Under the pieces are notes generated by a model. It worked only from the letters and a program-made list of their open reading frames with translations, was not told the origin of the DNA and did not search any database. 64,000 nt of DNA from Tupaia tana. Its lineage: Eukaryota > Chordata > Mammalia > Scandentia > Tupaiidae. Positions within the stretch are counted from its first letter, which is position 1. The number at the start of each line of letters is the position of its first letter. Location: NCBI GenBank assembly GCA_026018925.1, contig JAKSZU010000011.1:9382485-9446484 (forward strand), written 5' to 3'. A program made the position numbers and the translations under genes. This document shows, in pieces, positions 1,922 to 47,303 of this stretch.

Positions 1922-2735
1922 ACCAACACCTGTTTTTTTTTTTTTTTTTTTTTTTTTTGTTTTTTTTTTTTTTTTTTTTTTTTAGCAGATAACTTCTTTT
2001 TATTGTCTTTTAAATGTGTTGTTTGTTTTTTCCCTAATCCCCTCCCTCCTCCTATTATTCACACCTTATTACCCACCCCTTTCTATACTGTCTCTAGTAT
2101 TTATAATACAATATACAATGTAGAATTGTCCTCCCTGCTATCTTTCAGTTTATGCTGTAGAGTGCAGACATTTGGTATCTATTGAGCGGGGACATACAAT
2201 GCCTGTCTTTCATAGTCTGACTTGCTTCACTTAGCATTTTAAATCTTCCTATTTGTCCACTTCGTGTCAAATGTTAGGGTCTCTCTTTTTTTCATTTTTG
2301 TTTTTTGTTTGTTTTTGTTTGTTTGTTTGTTTTAATGGCTCAGTAGAATTCTTAGAGTTCATGGGCCACATTTTTTCAATTCACTTGTCTGCTCTTCGAC
2401 ATTTGGGTTGATTCCATGTCCTAGCAGTTGTGAATAATGCTGCAGTAAACATGATGTGCAAGTGTTTTTCTGACAGTTTTCCTATCCTCTGGGAAGATAA
2501 CTAAGAGTGGAATTATTACGTCATATGGTAGTCCTATTTGTAGATTTCTGAGCAACCTTCATAACATTTTCCACAGTGGTTGTATTAATTTACATTCCCA
2601 CCAACAGTGTAGGAGGGTTCCCTTTTTGCCATAGTCAGCACTTATTATTCCTTTTTTTTTTTTTTTTTTAAATCTTAGCCATTCTGATTGGGGTTAAGTG
2701 GTATGATTTGCATTTCCCTTTTAATAAGAGATGTT

Positions 2736-2769
<34 letters not shown>

Positions 2770-3253
2770 CTATACCTTTTGGCCGTTCATATGTTTTCCT
2801 TGGAGAATTGTCTGTTCAGTGAAGAAAAGAAAATGATAACTGGAAAAACTGGATATCTACCCTCAGAAGAATGAAAGTGGATCCATATCTCTCACCATTA
2901 ACAAAAATAAATTCTATATGGATCAATGATCTAAACATCAAACATCAAATTATAAAACTACTGATGGAAAACTCTTGGAGACATTGGAATAGGCAAAGAC
3001 CCCTAAAGTACAGACAATAATACTCAAAATAGACAAGTAGAACTACATTAGGCTAAACCGCTTCTGCACAACAGAAGAAACAATAAGTAGAGTGAGGAGA
3101 AAACCCTTAAAGTGGGAGAATGTATTTGCAAATTATTCCCCAGATAAGGAATAGATAACCAGACTACACAGGGAACTGAAACAGCTAACCTGCAAAAAAA
3201 AAGAATCAATCCAATTAAAAGATGGACAAATGAGCTGAACCAACACCTGTTTT
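1922..3253 (-). mobile_element. 5'-inverted (twin-primed) L1 insertion
   Basis: The TSD ACCAACACCTGTTTT occurs at 1922-1936 and 3239-3253. Between them, 1933-2820 is the antisense 3' end of an L1 (poly-T tail, 3' UTR, ORF2 C-terminal part). Bases 2821-3240 are ORF2 sequence in the opposite, sense orientation. Compared with the full-length L1 at 14921-20764, the sense piece aligns to about 19270-19695 (ending GAGCTGAAC), and the antisense piece takes up immediately after it. The two segments are therefore contiguous in L1 and inverted relative to each other, the known signature of twin priming during target-primed reverse transcription. The TSD overlaps the last few L1 bases, which suggests microhomology. 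No intact ORF remains. Confidence 0.85.
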
Positions 3254-5931: not shown

Positions 5932-6645
5932 AATGGAAATGAAATTTTACCAAATATATTCTTGGTACCCATCTTGGTAATCATTTTCATCTTTGCCCTA
6001 AAATATTAATTATTATAATAAAATTTATTGGCCATTCATTCATTGCTTTATAGACAGACAATTGATTTTTAAGTAATGACCATGTATTCTGCAAACCTAT
6101 TAAATTTATTTAATTGTCTTTATGTTTTTGATAGATTCCTTTGGATTTAACATGTTCGTGTGTGTGTGTGTGTATGTACAAAATATATACACACATGCAT
6201 ATATGTACATATATATATGTTATCTGAAAACACATTTTACATCTCCTTTTTCAATATTTGTCTTTCATTTCTTATCTCATGTTATTGCGCTAAGCTCTCC
6301 AACATAATATTTGATAGATGAAACTAGACATACTCACTACACTACCAGTCATAGGGGAAAAGTATTCAGTACATTACCATTAAGTAGTTTTAGCTGCAGG
6401 TTTTTCCTGGATGCTGTTTACCAAGTGGAAGGAGTGCCCTTCTATTCTTAGTTTGCTGAAAGTTCTTATTGTAAATGGATGTTGAGTTTGTATAATGCTA
6501 TTTTGACATTCATTATAATGAACATTTGATTTTCTTTATTTTGTTAATGTAGTGAATTACATTAATTAATTTTTAATTTAATTTAATTTATTTAAATTTA
6601 ATTGTTTAATCTTGCATTCTTTGGACAAAACCTACTTGCCCTGAT

Positions 6646-6982
6646 ATAAATTTGACTCTTGAATAAGATAGACTGGAATTACATGGGTCCACTTATATGA
6701 AGATTTTCAAAAAATACTTAACTGCAAATGTGCTTTGTTTTCTTTGTGGTTTTCTAAATAATAATTTCTTTCTCTAGTTTGCTTTCTTATAAGAATATAG
6801 CAAATAATATATATTATATTCAAAATGTGCTAAACTACTGTTTGTGTTATCAATAAAGCTCCTGATCAGTAAATACTAAGCTATTGGTAGTTAGGTTTTG
6901 TGGGTAGAAAGTTGTACATGAATTTTCAGCTATGGAGGGAGCTAGTGTCCCTCACCTACACATCATTCAAGGATCAGTTGCA
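6646..6982 (+). mobile_element. Tigger/MER44-type DNA transposon fossil
   Basis: About 337 bp with terminal inverted ends (TTTGACTCTTGAAT at the left; ATTCAAGGATCAGTTG at the right) next to TA. The interior (GGGTCCACTTATATGAAG, then a TTTCTTATAAGAATATAG-like stretch) resembles the non-autonomous Tigger/MER44 elements of mammals. It interrupts the old antisense L1. No transposase frame is present. The family name rests on memory of the consensus and should be confirmed. Confidence 0.65.
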
Positions 6983-7009
6983 TTCTTTTTTTTTAATATA
7001 TTGCTAGGT

Positions 7010-7010
7010 T

Positions 7011-7053
<43 letters not shown>
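7010..7053. repeat. (TTTA)n tail microsatellite
   Basis: About ten ATTT units. In antisense this is a TAAA-repeat tail, marking the 3' end of the HAL1-like element. Confidence 0.95.
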
Positions 7054-8193
7054 GTGTTAGTTTGTTCTTAAGTATACTTTCTTTTACTTTTTATATTTTT
7101 AATTTTTAAAACATTTTTTTAGTTTATTTTTATACTTTTCCACAAACATTTACTTTACATATCAAAAAATTTTAACTCATACTCCATAGTTCCTGAAAGT
7201 TAATAAACAACTTTCAAAATTTCAAAATACTGAATTTTAAAGATAATGGTCAAAATATTTTTTATAATTTTGTGACTATATAACAACAGAAACAGTATGC
7301 TTTTAAATATTTTTGAGAAAATATTTACATGTCAACTACTCAAATTGTTGAAAAGCAAATGCCCAGTACACTAGTCACACATAAACTTTCTCAGTTCGGC
7401 CCTGCCCAAGTGCATTCTATGATACACCATCTGCTAGTAAAGATCAATCTCTTTTTCTTCCTTCAAAGTCTTTCTCAAAATAATTCTCTGGTGGGGTTGC
7501 TCTTTTGCAGTCTCTACTGATTACAATGCTGAGCTGGAAAAGTCCAGGTTATTTTATGTTATAAATTCTTTCATATATCATCTCTAATCCTCTCTGCCAG
7601 GCAGAACTATTTATGGTGCCAGGCCATCTTTCTAAGAGCTTCTGTTAGTTTACTTGAGATCCACCTTAGTTCCATAGTTTTCTGATTAATCTTCAGATAT
7701 GACGTTCCAGTCACAGCCCTGTCCAATAATGAGTATTTCCAATTTCTGAATCAATGCAACAAGCATTATTGAACTTATGCAAATAACCCTTCTCCCACAA
7801 AATAAGAATATTCCCAAATATTTTCCAATTCCAGAGGGATCAGGAAGGAAGAACATTTTGTGTTTTCATTTAAAGAAACAAACAAGAAAAATATTTTAAC
7901 ATATTGCTGAACCTACCAACAACTGAAAAGAAAGTAAATTGTTTAAATTGGGAAAACAAAGCATAGTAAAAAAAAATTAGTAACGTTTTAATCAAAAGTC
8001 ATAAAATTTGATTTCGCCAGTTCAGTCTTATGTTCAAACTCTCTTCTGTTTAATATGCAGTGTTGCTGTGGTCCAATCTTTCCATTTAAATCCTGGAAGT
8101 TAAATTCTATGTTGTTATTGATATTTCTTGTCCCTAGCATCAAAATGTTCATATTCTTGGTTGCCTTTTGTTCTCTTATTTCTGTATGTATAT

Positions 8194-9191
8194 TTAGTTT
8201 CACTGGTCAAGCACTCCTTTCAGAATTTCTTGAAGAGTGGGTCTGCTACTGGCAAATTCTTTCAAGTCTTGTTTATCTGAAAATGTTTTTATTCTTTCTT
8301 TCCATATGAAAGATAATCTTGCTGGGTATAGCATTCTTGGTTGAAACCGTTTTTCACTTAACACTTTGAATATATTTCCCCATTCTTTCCTTGCTCACAT
8401 TGTTTCTGATGAGAGGTCCGAGGTTAGCCTGATAGGATAATCTTTATAAGTAACCTAACGTTTCTCTCTTGCCAATTTTAGTGTCTTGTCTTTGTCTGTA
8501 GATTTGACCAGTCTGGCTATGATGTGCCTTGGGGAAGATCTTCTTGGGTTGATTCTATTAGGGGTCTTTTGTATGTCTTGGATCTGGATATTTGAATGCC
8601 TCTTTAGATTTGGAAATTTTCTTCCAAGATTTCATGGAATAGATTATCAATGCCTTTATTAGTTTCCTCACCTTCTGGGATACCAATCAGAATGTTTGGG
8701 TGCTTAATGCTGTCTAGTATTTCTTGTATAATACTCTCACTTTTGAAGGTTATTTTCTCAGTTTTTTTGGTTGTTTTTTCTAGATCAGAGGTTTTACCTT
8801 CAACATACAAGATTCGATTTTCTGCATGGACTAATCTGCTTTTAATACTTTCGAGGGACGTTTTGATGTCCTGAAGGACAGCCTTCATCTCTAATAGCTC
8901 CATTTGATTCTTTTTCATGGTGTATATTTCCTCTTTCAGATCATGAAAGGACTTCAACACCTCCTGGAACTCATTGTCTCTTTTTTCCTGCATCTTCTGG
9001 AATTCATTATCTCTCAGCTCTTGCATCTCATTTTGTTTTGTCAATATGAATATTCTGAAGTCTTTATCAGACATTTCCAAGAATTCTACTGTACTGTTTG
9101 TAGATGATGAGATACTGTTCTTTTCCCTTATGGGAGAGACATTTTCTTGGTTTCTCATGTCTCTTGTACCTCTGCGGTTGTTTCTGGTCAT
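8194..9191 (-). pseudogene. L1/HAL1 ORF1p-like RNA-binding protein, decayed
   Basis: The frame is open from 9227 to 8604. Homology to the sense L1 ORF1 at 15426 suggests the original start at 9191 (MTRNNRRG). A long charged coiled coil follows (FHDLKEEIYTMKKNQMELLE, then SRLVHAENRI), as in the trimerising N-terminal half of L1 ORF1p. The C-terminal RNA-recognition part continues in another frame after a shift near 8610 (SPRHIIARL is visible) and ends near 8194. Several stops disrupt it. ORF1p normally coats L1 RNA and acts as a nucleic-acid chaperone. This copy cannot make the full protein. About two thirds of residues match the other ORF1 copy by eye. Confidence 0.8.
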
Positions 9192-10169
9192 TCTGTGACA
9201 AAATCTCTCCTCCACAATGTTTATCAATGTGGTATAAATAGTAAGATTAAGATTTCAGATTTATAGAAAGGAATTTCTTTGTTAAAGCAGGAGATTCAAT
9301 AAGCATTGAGGATTTCAATGAATCTGAAAGGCTTCAAATGCTTGGCTACTGTGCACCTAGGCCTATGTAGACATTAAGTGTCTAGAGAGTGAAGTTTAGG
9401 GTAAGAAAGTAAGATTAAAAAATATAAGCAAAAAGAAAAAAAATAGAAAAATACTACCAAAAAAGTAAAAAGTGAAAGCCACGCGAACACACCAAGACAC
9501 ACCTCAGCTTTAAAATGGCTTCTGAAATTAACAAATGAAAGAAAAGGCCCAAGCTGAGAAGAGGTGCTTGAACAATTTAAAAAAAAAAAAAGTTAAAAAA
9601 TTTTAAAGGTAGAAAGAGCGTGAAACATACAGAAAGGGGAGAGAACATGAGACAAACATGAGACAGACAGCCAGAGACAGAGAAAAGACGGAGGTCATCC
9701 TACCTTGTCTGAATATTTTGGGAGTCTAGGAGATGAGTTTAAAGCATGGCTTCCCTGAACACACCAGGACACACCTCAGCTTTAAAATGACTTCTTGTCT
9801 GAATATTTTGGGAGTCTACACTAGGTATTATTTGTCTGGCTTTTATATTTATGTCTATTTTCATAAAGAATATTAGCCTTTTTTTTTTTTTTTCCACTTG
9901 TTTGTTTGGTAATGCCCCTGCTGGTTTTATTTTTATGTTCAGGATTATACTTTCCTCATAAAGTAAATTGGAAAACAAATGGTGTATTTATGTAAAATTT
10001 ATGTAGTTTTTAAAAAATGCTTAATGGAATTCATCACTAAGATTATCTGGAGTTTTGATTTTCTTTTTAGAAAATGTATTCAGCTACCCAATTTCCTTGA
10101 AAGATAAATCAATATTTTATTTTCTTTTAATTCTTGTGTCAGTTATGGTAAGTTTGGTTATTGTTATTT

Positions 10170-14920: not shown

Positions 14921-15425
14921 TGGTCCACTTGGGACCTTCGCGCATCCCACCCGTACTCCTCTCTGGACCTCAGGTTGGTTGCATGGGACTTAAGATGAAC
15001 TTACACTCCACCCCACCCCACCTGCAAACTGGATTGAGCTGGCCAGCAGTTCTGGACACCAGGTGACTGCGGCTGCAGACCTGTCCATCTGGGACCCATC
15101 GCTCATCCTCTGGCTCTTCCCCACTTGCCTTTGGACTCTCTGAATTTTAGTGTTTTGAATAGCGTGTGGCGCACATTGTGCACCACACGGTTTTTGTTTT
15201 TGTTTTTCTTTGCTCTTGAGGTGTTGCTTATTAGGTCATTTGGAGGCTCACCACTCCTTAGAAACAGGGAGGTCTTTGGGCCACCCAGGACCCATGGCAA
15301 CAGTTCGTGGTAATGATGAGCAACAGGTAGGCCAACCGTAAGAGAAATCATCAATTTTCTAATCCTGTACAACTTTTAACACTCAGAGATACCTTATATA
15401 AGTTAGGAAGCAACATATAGATCAC
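14921..15425 (+). promoter_or_regulatory. L1 5' UTR / internal promoter region
   Basis: About 505 bp between the TSD and the ORF1 start. It is clearly more GC-rich than the flanks at its 5' end, as expected of the internal pol II promoter of an L1. Promoter activity is inferred only from position and family knowledge. Confidence 0.6.
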
Positions 15426-16388
15426 TTGATAACTAGGAACAATCTCAGAGGCTCAAGAAGTATGAGCAACCAACAAAAGGCCTCTCTCGCAAGAGAAATC
15501 ATCAAGCCTACATCACCGACACTCAATACAATGGACATCGTGGATATGTCTGATAAGGAATTTAGAATATTTGTAGTGACCAAACTGAGATGGAAGAGAA
15601 AAGAGACAAGGAGCTCCAGGAAATGAGGAAGTCCTTTCATGACTTGAAAGAAGAAATAGATACCTTAAATAAGAACCAAATGGAACTTCTAGGGTTGAAG
15701 AATGTGATCCAGGAAATCAAAACCTCCCTTGAAAGTATTAAAAGTAGATTAGATCAGGCAGAAGATCGAATCTTTAATGTAGAAGACAAAACATCTGACC
15801 TAGAAAAAAGTACCAAGAAGATTGAGAAAACAACCATGAAAAAATGAGGATAATATACGAGGAATACTGGATACCATCAAGCACCCCAACATCCGGATAA
15901 TTGGTATCCCAGAAGAGGAAGAAAATAATAAGGGCCTAGATAATTTATTCCATGAAATCCTAGAAGAAATGTAAAAAGGCATTCAAATATCCAGACCCAA
16001 GAAATACATAGGACCCCGAGTAGAATCAACCCAAGAAGATCATCTCATACTCATATCATAGCCAGACTGGCAAAAACAACAGACAAAGACAAGATACTAA
16101 AATTGTCAAGAGGGAAACGTCAAGTTACTTACAAAGGTCACCCACCCCATCAGGCTAACATCGGATCTCTCAGCGGAAACAATGCAGGCAAGGAAAGAGT
16201 GGGGAAATATAGTCAAAGTGTTGAATGAAAAACAATTTCAACCAAGAATACTATACCCAGCAAGATTATCTTTCATATGGGAAAAAAAGATAAAAACATT
16301 CTCGGATTAACAAAATTTGAAGGAATGTACCAACTCTAGACCAGGTCTTCAAGAGGTTCTGAAGGGAGTGCTATACCAGGAAAACTAA
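15426..16388 (+). pseudogene. L1 ORF1 (RNA-binding chaperone), frameshifted
   Basis: It starts MITRNNLRGSRSMSNQ and continues through MSDKEFRIF. A frameshift near 15590-15626 follows, then the coiled coil SFHDLKEEIDTLNKNQMELL in a second frame. The C-terminal part resumes in another frame (HPNIRIIGIPEE, SAETMQARKEW-like) and ends QEVLKGVLYQEN at 16388. At full length it would be near 320 residues, close to typical L1 ORF1p. A stop follows HEILEEM near 15970. L1 ORF1p coats its own RNA and is required for L1 mobility; this copy is dead. It is a homologue of the minus-strand ORF1 at 8194-9191. Confidence 0.85.
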
Positions 16389-16460
16389 AAAGTCAGACAG
16401 ACAGTTACACGAGGACAAAAAGCAACCCAGAAAATGGCTCATTTAGTGAAAGGAACAGGT

Positions 16461-16534
16461 ATGGAAATATCGATAATTACATTTAATGTCAATGGATTAA
16501 ATTCTCCAATTAAGAGACATAGACTGGCCGAATG

Positions 16535-16584
<50 letters not shown>

Positions 16585-19500
16585 AGAAACCCTCTATTTG
16601 TTGCCTACAAGAAACTCACCTTATGGATGAAGACATACATAGACTAAAGTAAAAGGCTGGAAAAAGATATTCCATGCAAATGGAAATCAAAAAAGGGCTG
16701 GAGTAGCAATATTGATCTCAGACAAAATAGATTTCAAGACAAAGACTGTAAGAAAAGACAAAGAAGGGCATTAAATAATAGTAAATGGGGTAATCCAGAA
16801 ATAAGACATAATGCTTATAAATGTCTATGCACCCAACTCATGTGCACCTAAATATGTGAAGGAAAGACTGCTGGAGCTAAAAGGAGAGACAGGGAGAAAT
16901 ACTATAATTGTTGGAGATCTCAACACCCCATTATCTACTTTAGACAGATCTTCTAGACAGAAAATAAATAGAGATACAGGACCTGATACTATAAATTGAA
17001 TGGGTTTGACAGATATCTATAGAACTTTCCACCCTACATCCACAACATATACATTTTTCTCACCCCGGCATGGAACCTTTTCAAAGATTGATCATATGTT
17101 AGGTCACAAATCAAGCCTTTACAGATTCAAAGGCATAGAAACTGTATTCAGCATCTTCTCTGACCATGATGGAATTAAACTCAAGATTAATTTCAAGAAA
17201 CAACCCCGAAATACACGAACACATGGAAACTGAACAACCTACTTCTGAATGACTTCTTCACTACTGAAGAAATTAAGTCTGAAATCAAAAAGTTCATGTA
17301 AACAAATGACAATGAGTACACAAGTGTCCACAACCTATGGGACACGGCAAAAGCAGTCATAAGAGGGAAATTCATAGCAATTAGTGCACTTAAGAAAAGG
17401 ATGGAAAGATGTCAAATAGATAACTTATCATCATGCCTCAGGGACTTGGAAAAACAACAACAAGCAAACACCAAAAATGCCAGGCATAAAGAAATAATAA
17501 AGGTTTGAGCAGAAATAAATGAAATAGGAAATAAATGAACCATACTGAAAATAAATGAAAGCAAAAGCTGGTTCTTTGAAAAGATTAACAAGATCAGCTA
17601 TACTGATCAAGAAGAAGAAAGAAAGAAACCAGATTAATCAAACATATACTGAAACAGGCAATTTTACAACAGACATAGTAGAAATACAAAATATCATTAG
17701 AGGATACTATGAGCGACTATATGCCAACAAACAAGATAACCTGGAGGAGATGGACAAATTCCTGGATGCATATAATCTACCAAGATTGAATCAGGAGGAC
17801 AAAGAGAATCTGAATAGACCCATAACAAGCTAGGAGATCAAATCAGTAATAAATAACCTCCCAACAAAGAAAAGCCTAGGTCCAGATGGCGTCACTTCTG
17901 AATTCTACAAAACTTTTAAGGAAGAGTTAACCCCTAGCCTACTAAAATTATTTCTAAGATTCAAAAGGAAGAAAGCCTTCCAAATTCATTTTATAAAACC
18001 TTCATCATCCTCATTCCCAAAGCAGATAAGGACATGACAAAAAAGGAAAACTACAGACCAATATTGCTGATGAATACAGATGCAAAAATTCTCAACAAGA
18101 TACTCGCAAATCGTATCCAACAACATATAACAAAGATCATTCATCACGACCAGGTAGGCTTTATCCCAGGGATGCAAGGGTGGTTCAACATATGCAAGAC
18201 CATAAATGAAATGTACCATATTAACAGAAAGAAAGATAAAAACCATATGATCATTTCAACTGACGTAGAGAAAGCATTTGATAAAATACAATATCCTTTT
18301 ATGATTAAGACCCTCAGTAAGATTGGTATAGGAGGGTCATTTCTCAACACAATAAAAGCCATCTATGAAAAACCAACAGCTTACAATATACTGAATGGGG
18401 AAAAGCTAAAAGCTTTTCTGCTAAAAATGGGTACTAGACAAGACCGCCCACTTTCTCCACTGCTCTTTAATATAGTACTGGAAGTCTTAGTTAACGCAAT
18501 CAGAAAAGAGAACAATATAAAAGGCATTCAAATAAGCAAAGAAGAGTTGAAAATATCTTTATTTGCAGATGACATGATGGTATACTTAGAAGACCCAGAG
18601 GTCTCCATGAAAAAACTTCTTGAAGTAATAAGTGAATACAGCAAGATGGCAGGATACAAAATCAACATCCACAAATCTATAGCATTTCCATATATGAACA
18701 ACAAGTTGAACGAAGTAGAGCTGAAGAAAGGAATCCCTTTCACCGTAGCCACAAGTTGTATAAGATACCTAGGGATAAACCTAAGAAAGTCAAAGACCTT
18801 TATAAAGAAAACTATGAAAATCTTTAAAAAGATATTGAAAGTGACATAAAAAGTGGAAGGACCTCCTATGTTCCTGGATTGGAAGAATTAACATAATCAA
18901 AATGACAATTCTACCCAAATTAATCTACATGTTTAATGCAATTCCAATCAGAATACCAGAAATATTCTTCACAGATCTAGAAAAGACAATCATAGAATTT
19001 GTCTGGAATCATAGAAGACCTCATATTGCAAAAGCAATCCTGCGCAAGAAGAATGGAGTAGGAGGCATATCACTCCCTGATCCCAAGATATACTATAAAG
19101 CTGTGGTCATCAAAACAGCATGGTATTGGCACAAAAACAGACATGTGGACCAATGGAAGAGAATAGAGTCCCCAGAAATAACCCCCAAAGCTTACAGCCA
19201 ACTGATTTTTGACAAATGATATCAGTCAATTCATTGGGAAAAGGAAAACCTCTTTAGTAAATGGTGCTGGAAAAACTGGATATCCACCTGCAGAAAGATG
19301 AAACTGAACCCCCATCTTTCACCATTAAGAAAAATCAACTCAAAATGGATCAAAGATCTGAACCTAAGACCTCAAACAATAAAACTACAGGTGGAAAATG
19401 ATGGGGAAACTCTGGCAGACATTGGAATAGGCAAAGACTTCTTAAATAAGACTCTCAAAGCACAGGCAATAATCCCTAAAATAGACAAGTGGGACTATAT

Positions 19501-20174
19501 CAGACTAAAAAGTTTCTGCACAGCAAAGGACTCAGTAGCAAGTGTGAACCGACAACCCTCAGAATGGGAAAATATTTTTGTTAAATGTGCCTCAGACAAG
19601 GGACTGATAGCCAGAATACACAGGGAACTCAAGTGCCTTATGTGAAAAAAAAATGATTAACCTAATTAAAAGATGGGGAAATGAGCTGAACAAAAATCTC
19701 TCTAAGGAAGACATATGAACAGCCAAAAAGCATATGAGGAAATGCTCAACATCCCTCATCGTAAGGGAGATGCAGATAAAAACCACAATGAGATACCACC
19801 TAACCCCTGTCAGAATGGCAAAGATTAAGAATATAAAAAGTGATAAGTGTTGGCGGGGATGTGGTGAAAAGGGAACCCTTCTACACTGTTGGTAGGAATG
19901 TAAACTGGTTCAGCCACTGTGGAGAACAATATGGATGTTCCTCAAAGATCTACAAATAGAACTACCATTTGATCCAACAATCCCACTTCTGGGTATCTAC
20001 CCAGAGGACAGGAGAACGCTCAGTCAGAAAAGTGCTTGCACATCAATGTTTATTGCAGCATTATTCATGATTGCCAAGACATGGAACCAACCTAAATGTC
20101 CACAAACTGATGAATGGATTGGAAAGGTGTGGCATATATACTCTATGGAATACTACTCAGCCATAAAAAAATAA
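16461..20174 (+). pseudogene. L1 ORF2 (endonuclease + reverse transcriptase), decayed
   Basis: It starts MEISIITFNVNGLNSPIK. The AP-like endonuclease part shows GVAILISDKIDFKTK, INVYAPN, VGDLNTPLS and SDHDGIKLKI. The RT domain is the best-preserved open stretch (18034-18849). It contains [26 protein letters not shown] and the catalytic FADD motif at 18562-18573, so all three catalytic aspartates are visible. The C-terminal part ends TDEWIGKVWHIYSMEYYSAI. At least four frame changes and many stops (first one right after RLAE at 16532) disable it. A run of 45 A (16539-16583) sits just after that stop. ORF2p nicks DNA and reverse-transcribes L1 and SINE RNA in living copies. Confidence 0.9.
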
Positions 20175-20874
20175 CAAGACCCTGGCATTTGATAGAAAGT
20201 GGTCAGATATGGAGGATCTATTGCTGAGTGAAGTAAGCCAGGCTATGAAAGAAAGATATTGTATGTATCCACTTAATATATACCGACTATCTGCACTCTA
20301 TGGTAGAGAGCAAAATATTGGAGAACATAAAAGCAGTGAAATTACTTAACGAGAATAAGACAGTGTGAAATGGGGGAGGGGGGTGAAGAGAAGAGGATAG
20401 AGAAAGATAGCAAGAGAACAAATAGAGAGGCATGACATTAGTGGGACACAGATATGGCTTATTACCTTATGACGTGTATAGTATTCTCAACTGGTTTGGT
20501 CTGCGAAGTATTTCATGATGGATAAAGTCTTTTGACAAGAAAAATGAGAAATAGTGATTGACTGTTTAAAAAATAATTGGAATAATAATAATAATAATAA
20601 TCAGATAAAAACAATGAAAAGATATTGTATGATGAAGTGGGTAGTTTAATGTCTCTGTATTGACTGATATGCAAGGCAATCCCTTTTGAAAAAGCAATGT
20701 AATACACTGTAAAGTTATATGCAATTCAATGTAATATAAACAAGATTCTGATGATAATAAATAAAAAAATTGATAGCTTCTCGAAATAAAATAATTGTTT
20801 AAAGCATAGGGTTGGGAATAATGAAAAATAAAATAGTTTTTGCCCTGTTTGGGGTAAATTTTTATAGCTAAAAG

Positions 20875-32679: not shown

Positions 32680-32948
32680 TTTTTTTTCTTTTTTTTGGAG
32701 AGGTTTTTTGCTATAGGGTGTGTGTGCTCACCAGAAAGACAGAGAGAGACAGAGAGACAGAAAGTGAGAAATCACACCCCAGGGGGGATGGCCATGCCGC
32801 AATCCCTTCTTCTCCATTCTCCTCTTGGGATCTTGGGCATGCACGCACACGCGACTGGCGTGAGTTTAAGCCACCGGGTCCGGGACTCGAACCATGGTCA
32901 ACTACATGGGAGTCCAGCGACATAGCCATTACACTAACTGCTGGTCCC
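32680..32948 (-). mobile_element. Young SINE-A copy with TSD
   Basis: T-run, GAGAGGTTTTTTGCTATAGG, end CTGCTGGTCCC. Exact 15-bp TSD AGTAAATACATTCTT at 32665-32679 and 32949-32963. With the copy at 32096 it forms an inverted pair. Confidence 0.93.
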
Positions 32949-46612: not shown

Positions 46613-47038
46613 AGTGATTATCACAAACAAATTATCAAATTAGTTAGCACATCTATTACCTCACCTAACTACCCTTTTCTGTTTGTCTTGCTTGGTTTCA
46701 TAGTGAAGACATTTAATCAAATTTCAAGCAGTCAATTCAGTATTGTTAACTACAATCATTACACTATATACTAGGTCCTTTAAAAATAGAACTACCCTGT
46801 CACCCAGAAATCCCTCTTCTGGGTATACACCAAAGAAAACATAGCCAACCCCTTGTAGATATAGCCGTATTTCTATGTTCCTTGAAGCATTAATCACAAC
46901 AGCTAAGATATAGAAACAATCTGAGTGCCTAATGGTTGAATGCATAAAGAAACTGTAATATATAGATACATAGAATGAAATACTATTCAGCCAATAAAAG
47001 AAAAAAATTCTTCCATTTGTGACAACAAGATGAATCTT

Positions 47039-47303
47039 TTTTTTTTTTTTTTTTGAGAGTTTTTTGCTATAGGGCGTGTGTGTTCACCAGAAAGACAGAG
47101 AGAGACAGAGAGACAGAAAGCGAGAAATCACCTCTGGGGGGGGATGGCCATGCCACAATCCCTTCTCCTCCATTCTCCTCTCAGGATCTTGGGCATGCAC
47201 GCACACGTGCCTGGCATGAGTTTAAGCCACCGGGTCCAGGACTTGAACAGTGGTCGACTACATGGGAGTCCAGCAACATAGCCATTATGCCAACTGCTGG
47301 TCC
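47039..47303 (-). mobile_element. Young SINE-A copy with TSD
   Basis: T18, GAGAGTTTTTTGCTATAGGG, end CTGCTGGTCC. Exact TSD ACAAGATGAATCTT at 47025-47038 and 47304-47317, in old L1. Confidence 0.93.

Follow-up and report, generated by a model that had tools for sequence, protein, structure and literature searches.

The window, the whole 64-kb stretch of DNA analysed, contains a minus-strand retroelement of 2.77 kb, which runs from 9820 to 7054 and continues as a (TAAA)11 tail to 7010. In the 5′ to 3′ direction, it consists of a 5′ UTR, an L1-type ORF1, a spacer, approximately 25 nt of ORF2, an unrelated 1.05-kb 3′ UTR, and an A-rich tail (Table 1). These parts, including their orientation, had been proposed in the initial annotation and were all recovered in the present analysis. 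A nearly full-length L1 (hereafter, the local L1) is located at approximately 14926–20768, with AAAAATTGATAGCTTCT as a target-site duplication (TSD) on both sides; its limits and TSD were assigned by eye. The local L1 and the element reside in the same genome, are both flanked by TSDs, and are 75% identical in DNA over approximately 1.1 kb of ORF1 and spacer. In contrast to the element, the local L1 has ORF2, an approximately 450-bp 3′ UTR with a G-rich tract (recognized by eye), and a different 5′ UTR.

Table 1. Coordinates of the element, its duplicated target site, and the host L1 in the window.
Feature	Position	Strand	Remarks
Host, part of an ancient L1 ORF2	6217..7003	-	6217-6566: 62% identical to the local L1 (376 columns)
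Target-site duplication, 3′ copy	7004..7016	.	Minus-strand sequence AAATAAAACCTAG; shares 7010-7016 with the tail
(TAAA)11 tail	7010..7053	-	
3′ UTR of HAL1 family F1	7054..8103	-	1.05 kb; 40/40 scored genome places 91-100% identical
ORF1-ORF2 spacer and ~25 nt of the ORF2 start	8104..8196	-	End of the BLAST match to the local L1; also aligned with F2 and L1
ORF1, homologous to L1 ORF1	8197..9191	-	Frame open as far as 8604; frameshift of 1 bp and stops beyond
33-bp in-frame duplication in ORF1	8964..9028	-	11 residues more than the local L1
484-bp intron	9220..9703	-	Donor as for the 182-bp segment; acceptor CTAAG|CACTGTGG, mutated in the window copy to ATAAA|CATTGTGG; lacking in many genome copies
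182-bp GT-AG segment	9522..9703	-	GTAGGA...TTAATTTCAG; absent from the repeat unit, where A adjoins B
Part A, second copy	9704..9728	-	Ends in the splice donor ACAAG|GTAGGA
~90-bp 5′ UTR repeat unit	9729..9820	-	Parts A (25 bp), B (37 bp), and J (28 bp)
Target-site duplication, 5′ copy	9821..9833	.	AAATAATACCTAG on the minus strand; 12/13 bases as in the other copy; joined host flanks gapless here
Host, same ancient L1 ORF2 continued	9834..10066	-	Weak alone; collinear with the left flank when joined

The element was inserted into an ancient L1. The left flank matched the local L1 ORF2 with an E value of 3e-22, whereas the right flank by itself gave a weak match (59%, E 0.001). When the flanks were joined with a single TSD copy, they aligned with the local L1 at 58% over 279 columns (E 0.001) and the TSD was gapless; host sequence between 6566 and 7003 was aligned to the local L1 only in this joined alignment. 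Since the joined flanks run without a gap across the site with one TSD copy, we concluded that the element arrived by an insertion with target-site duplication, and a chance TSD combined with a target deletion was ruled out. The imperfect 13-bp TSDs and the continuity of the host L1 across the site, both claimed previously, were thereby upheld. In the left TSD copy, positions 7010–7016 (seven of 13 bases) are indistinguishable from the (TTTA)n tail.

The ORF1 frame opens at 9191 and remains open to 8604, a length of 195 residues. Past 8604, the homology changes frame and contains two internal stops, with a third stop two residues before its end at approximately 8197. The element is complete, as described, but its ORF1 has not remained intact. 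An age estimate based on the two stop codons was 4.8%, with an interval (0.6–17.4%) that is too wide for dating. ORF1 matched the LINE-1 ORF1p structures 2YKO and 2YKP in PDB (E 1.3e-7), which we take to be those of the human protein, and the 195-residue piece had no domain match in Pfam. The initial annotation had stated that ORF1 closely resembles that of the local L1; the likeness was confirmed, but it is moderate rather than close, and the UTRs of the two elements differ. Homology to the local L1 stops approximately 25 nt inside ORF2, near 8104. The 33-bp duplication presumably falls within the coiled coil expected in ORF1. The length of this region varies among L1, F1 (the family of the element, described below), and related ORF1s.

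Other repeats were also noted in the window. An abundant SINE of approximately 266 bp (e.g., 32680–32948 and 47037–47303) has a purine-rich stretch and poly(A); it gave 26 matches in the window, 15 copies contributed to a majority sequence, and it looks tRNA-derived. An L1 piece at 2158–3243 comprises two parts that match the ORF2 end of the local L1 in opposite orientations (19793–20300 reversed and 19267–19694 direct), which is likely a twin-priming inversion.

The 3′ UTR had no other match within the 64-kb window at E <= 1e-3; however, it proved to be repeated in the 2.95-Gb host assembly. Using positions 7300–8090 as the query, the best 40 of 4502 first-look candidates were scored (4502 is not a copy count), and all 40 places, including the window copy, matched at 91–100%. 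Stretches of approximately 10 kb were then taken around 20 of the 39 places outside the window. Directly upstream of the 3′ UTR, the spacer and ORF1 were present in 19 of these 20 copies and ORF2 in none; the remaining copy (L025) reaches no farther than the start of the 3′ UTR, owing to truncation, and is hence uninformative on ORF2. The 5′ UTR was used in the same manner: the best 40 of 1742 candidates were scored, and 651 bp were read at 20 of them, approximately 1.05–1.7 kb downstream, a distance at which ORF2 or a HAL1 3′ UTR would be expected. A HAL1 3′ UTR lay one ORF1-length downstream in all 20 (19 of F1 and one, L032, of the second family F2 described below). ORF2 was detected in none of the 20 downstream reads, with only A-run matches in L038. 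Five more of the 40 places, including the window copy, are situated upstream of an F1 3′ UTR place at a fitting distance.

Together with the 3′ UTR of F2, these searches provided three anchors, and ORF2 adjoined the HAL1 3′ UTR in none of the 60 fetched copies, which were drawn, 20 per search, from the 40 most query-like places. The genome search proposed in the initial annotation, thus, returned many copies joined to ORF1 and none joined to ORF2, and the arrangement that it had named as contrary evidence, the same 3′ UTR after a full ORF2, was not encountered among these 60. Conversely, the end of ORF2 of the local L1 was 95–96% identical at the other 39 scored genome places, and in 20 of the 40 scored places, at which 450 bp were read downstream, ORF2 was followed by the L1's own 3′ UTR in every case (20/20). 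The 3′ UTR of the local L1 aligned with that of F1 no better than shuffled sequences (97 versus a shuffle maximum of 109). Many genome copies share the layout of 5′ UTR, ORF1, spacer, brief ORF2 remnant, HAL1 3′ UTR, and A-rich tail. F1 copies differed from their site-by-site majority by 2.3–4.6% in the 3′ UTR and by 3.2–6.4% in ORF1. Clear TSDs flanked six of the 20 fetched F1 copies (L014, L016, L019, L020, L021, and L022). Our TSD script reported only 7–10 bp, which is short or doubtful, in another six and none in eight; in five of these eight, it had misplaced the element start at a remote match.

The element lacks the ORF2 with endonuclease and reverse transcriptase that characterizes an autonomous L1. 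It has an ORF1 homologous to that of L1, no ORF2, membership in a repeat family of its own, TSDs, and an A-rich tail, as HAL1s do. We are highly confident that it is a copy of a HAL1 (half-L1) family, F1, a non-autonomous, L1-derived non-LTR retrotransposon that encodes ORF1 only. The assignment to a HAL1 family made at the outset is, thus, supported by all three anchors and by the 40 of 40 scored matches of F1.

A second ORF1-only element, F2, was first met in one of the fetched stretches (L013, 3463–5605). Its 3′ UTR matched at 93–100% in all 40 scored places (the best 40 of 8569 candidates), and ORF1 was directly upstream in 20 of 20 fetched copies, with ORF2 in none (0/20). The F1 and F2 elements are alike in the ORF2 break region, and their 3′ UTRs align at the start, past the ORF2 remnant, before diverging (score 203 versus a maximum of 156 in 100 shuffles). 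Since this first part of the 3′ UTR is shared, ORF2 was probably lost before either family arose. The match between the 3′ UTRs of F2 and the local L1 was marginal (116 versus a shuffle maximum of 115). Copy L032 has an F1-like 5′ UTR together with an F2 3′ UTR. In ORF1, F2 copies differed from their majority by 1.6–3.8%, less than F1 copies, and, thus, F2 is probably the younger family. In L069, an F2 copy, an early segment of ORF1 lies in the opposite orientation to the remainder, as twin priming would give.

Relatives of ORF1 were also sought among proteins. The alignment search matched 4431 proteins, 120 of which were listed. In the first tree (23 protein rows), the placement of the element was not settled. 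The second tree (16 protein rows) also included an F2 row; here, moderate support (87/85) was obtained for a group that contained F1, F2, and nine ORF1s of metagenome or bacterial entries and excluded the local L1. A protein search with the 195-residue piece gave five matches on contigs of 624–2304 bp, one of which is filed as bacterial. This entry, P0001, is filed under Streptomyces narbonensis (2304-bp contig) and is an F2-like mammalian ORF1. Since it is 87% identical over 269 columns to ORF1 of the F2 copy L013, it is probably host contamination. A peptide-pattern search of viral and prokaryote contigs confirmed no relative.

The 5′ UTR of F1 carries a repeat and signs of splicing. The window copy begins with one unit of approximately 90 bp, which is followed by the remaining 5′ UTR; other genome copies have this unit once or twice at the 5′ end. 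Parts A and B are joined in the unit and occur apart farther downstream, where A ends at 9704 and B begins at 9521. The 182 bp between them begin with GTAGGA and end in TTTCAG. We scored splice sites with simple frequency weights rather than with a published tool; on this scale, the donor of the segment ranked 4 of 114 and its acceptor 3 of 205 in the element. Among 121,396 enumerated deletions, 600 had GT-AG ends, and 12 of these were as strong as the 182-bp segment. Since parts A and B join exactly at the GT-AG sites, the repeat unit may derive from a 5′ UTR copy that had been spliced, and splicing may, thus, have built the promoter repeats.

The 484-bp intron was assessed in 21 F1 copies (the window copy and the 20 fetched copies). 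In nine of these (L010, L014, L017, L020, L021, L022, L024, L026, and L028), part A is joined directly to CACTGTGG or a variant of it, 28 nt before the ORF1 start, and L019 appeared by eye to be spliced with another acceptor. The intron and donor are kept in the window copy and L012; L015 and L023 also keep the intron and are truncated inside it. The junction was not shown in the remaining seven of the 21. Accordingly, 10 of the 14 informative copies have a spliced-RNA origin. The upstream repeats of approximately 90 bp are retained in the spliced copies, and TSDs flank five of these copies (L014, L019, L020, L021, and L022, with that of L020 being A-rich). In the whole genome, with up to three mismatches, the spliced junction (44 bases) had 95 matches and the unspliced acceptor (48 bases, one variant) 172, each with no match in controls; a second, overlapping unspliced pattern gave 195. 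The unspliced counts include copies that are truncated in the intron or spliced otherwise, and, therefore, 95 and 172 do not provide a ratio.

We also considered a spliced subfamily marked by the CACAGTGG variant. This was unsupported: among the matches listed, the variant was also frequent in unspliced copies, which indicates that the copying of spliced RNA was not confined to a single sequence background. Splicing at the ORF1–3′ UTR junction as the cause of the ORF2 loss was set aside on inspection by eye only. F2 has two forms at its own acceptor: a pyrimidine-rich stretch ending in CAG was absent from 10 of 20 copies and kept in seven, and three copies were uninformative (L069 was left out of this tally). 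Judged from the acceptor, these two forms are putative splice forms. At L011:2607–2699, a 5′ repeat unit adjoins the middle of ORF1 (query position 584) with almost nothing in between, unlike in other copies, and this is possibly another rearranged or spliced RNA.

Differences in ORF1 were then compared by codon position (first/second/third). Differences private to single copies were even (131/131/144 in F1 and 96/84/97 in F2), as expected from decay after insertion. In contrast, fixed differences between F1 and F2 were 49/29/84 (Fisher's test versus private differences, p = 1.5e-4). When polarized with the local L1, F2-specific changes were 30/11/44 (p = 0.004); the third-position excess fell short of significance for F1-specific changes taken by themselves (14/11/21, p = 0.16) or for HAL1 versus the single, decayed local L1 (25/24/41, p = 0.06). 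Variants common to at least two copies had no third-position bias (52/40/37 in F1 and 28/25/31 in F2). Since the bias is present between families and absent from private differences, the simplest reading of these codon-position counts is that selection acted on ORF1 in the source lineages, which would have needed a working ORF1. If the loss of ORF2 is common to F1 and F2, as their 3′ UTRs suggest, this selection acted in HAL1s.

Other histories may be proposed for these observations. At a single locus, an L1 copy that lost ORF2 through an internal deletion before or after its insertion would look the same, and the homology does stop inside ORF2. However, 19 of the 20 F1 copies have this junction and 3′ UTR as well (the other is truncated), the HAL1 3′ UTR ends all 20 copies reached from the 5′ UTR side, and the host L1 is unbroken across the site. 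We, thus, regard a one-off deletion as having virtually no probability, and the absence of ORF2 reflects the structure of the element, as initially claimed, rather than a later deletion. It is also very improbable that the 3′ UTR is that of an autonomous L1 family, with the ORF1-only copies as its recurrent spliced or truncated by-products. Splicing and retrotransposition of L1 RNAs are documented in the sections of PMC5860796 consulted, and our sample of the best 40 query-like copies per search leaves older L1 families outside. Against this, none of the 60 fetched copies has ORF2 at the HAL1 3′ UTR, and all 20 fetched L1s of the local family have a different 3′ UTR.

The possibility that F1 and F2 descend from related L1s through separate losses of ORF2, such that the selection signal belongs to their L1 ancestors rather than to HAL1s, deserves more weight, although we consider it unlikely. 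Independent origins of HAL1s in mammals have been reported (PMC5753468, citing Bao and Jurka 2010, in the part consulted), and the F1 copy was unplaced in one ORF1 tree and grouped with F2 at just 87/85 in the other. However, the two families coincide in the region where ORF2 breaks off and share the initial portion of the 3′ UTR, and an F1-like 5′ UTR is found on a copy with an F2 3′ UTR (L032). A further scenario, to which we give somewhat less than even odds as a whole, is an ORF2-less L1 lineage that persisted long enough to give rise to at least two large families, in which ORF1 was selected while the lineage parasitized successive L1s, a 5′ UTR intron led to spliced and unspliced RNAs that were both retrotransposed in number, and the unit of approximately 90 bp was perhaps born from splicing.

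The missing ORF2, TSDs, and A-rich tails suggest that these HAL1s used L1 ORF2 in trans. By analogy with L1 biology, a source HAL1 copy would be transcribed from the repeats of approximately 90 bp at its 5′ end, and the RNA would often be spliced within the 5′ UTR. ORF1p, also by analogy with L1, would bind its own HAL1 RNA. L1 ORF2p acting in trans would then nick an A/T-rich target and copy the RNA by target-primed reverse transcription. HAL1s raise the question of why an element that borrows its enzyme should retain ORF1. This genome contains two large families, the copies of which decayed evenly once inserted, following earlier selection on ORF1; this makes an answer testable, namely that ORF1p favors its own RNA.

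HAL1 retrotransposons of mammals were reportedly described by Smit in 1999 and by Bao and Jurka in 2010. The short tandem units at the 5′ end of F1 are reminiscent of mouse L1, the tandem 5′ UTR monomers of which are known as promoter units; however, the mouse units are unrelated, longer, and located on an ORF2-bearing element. HAL1s are characterized, in the excerpts consulted, as L1-dependent derivatives of L1 that have ORF1 only, are A-tailed and flanked by TSDs, and arose several times independently (PMC5753468, PMC5322556, PMC4161310, and PMC4859970). F1 resembles these elements in being L1-derived and multi-copy, with ORF1 only, an A-rich tail, and TSDs. Families are listed for the guinea pig (HAL1-1H_Cpo and others) and marmoset in the portion of PMC3183009 consulted, and, thus, lineage-specific HAL1s are already known; HAL1 activity in the rat is mentioned in an excerpt of PMC8535693. 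Within these excerpts, neither 5′ repeats of approximately 90 bp nor a 5′ UTR intron, both of which F1 has, is mentioned, and selection on ORF1 is not given as a defining trait. A limited literature search found no earlier report of splicing in a HAL1 5′ UTR.

Splicing in the 5′ UTR of human L1 is known (excerpts of PMC5860796 and PMC13174262). The spliced F1 copies resemble human SpIREs (spliced integrated retrotransposed L1 elements) in being made from RNA spliced in the 5′ UTR at GT-AG sites, and have the same deletion bounded by a splice donor and acceptor in a TSD-flanked copy. In the sections of PMC5860796 consulted, SpIREs are generally dead ends with reduced promoter activity. In contrast, spliced F1 copies are common (10 of 14) and keep the upstream repeats, although the unspliced acceptor was matched more often genome-wide (172 versus 95). 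HAL1 families were, thus, already known, and what F1 adds to them is a spliced, repeated 5′ end and signs that ORF1 was kept useful.
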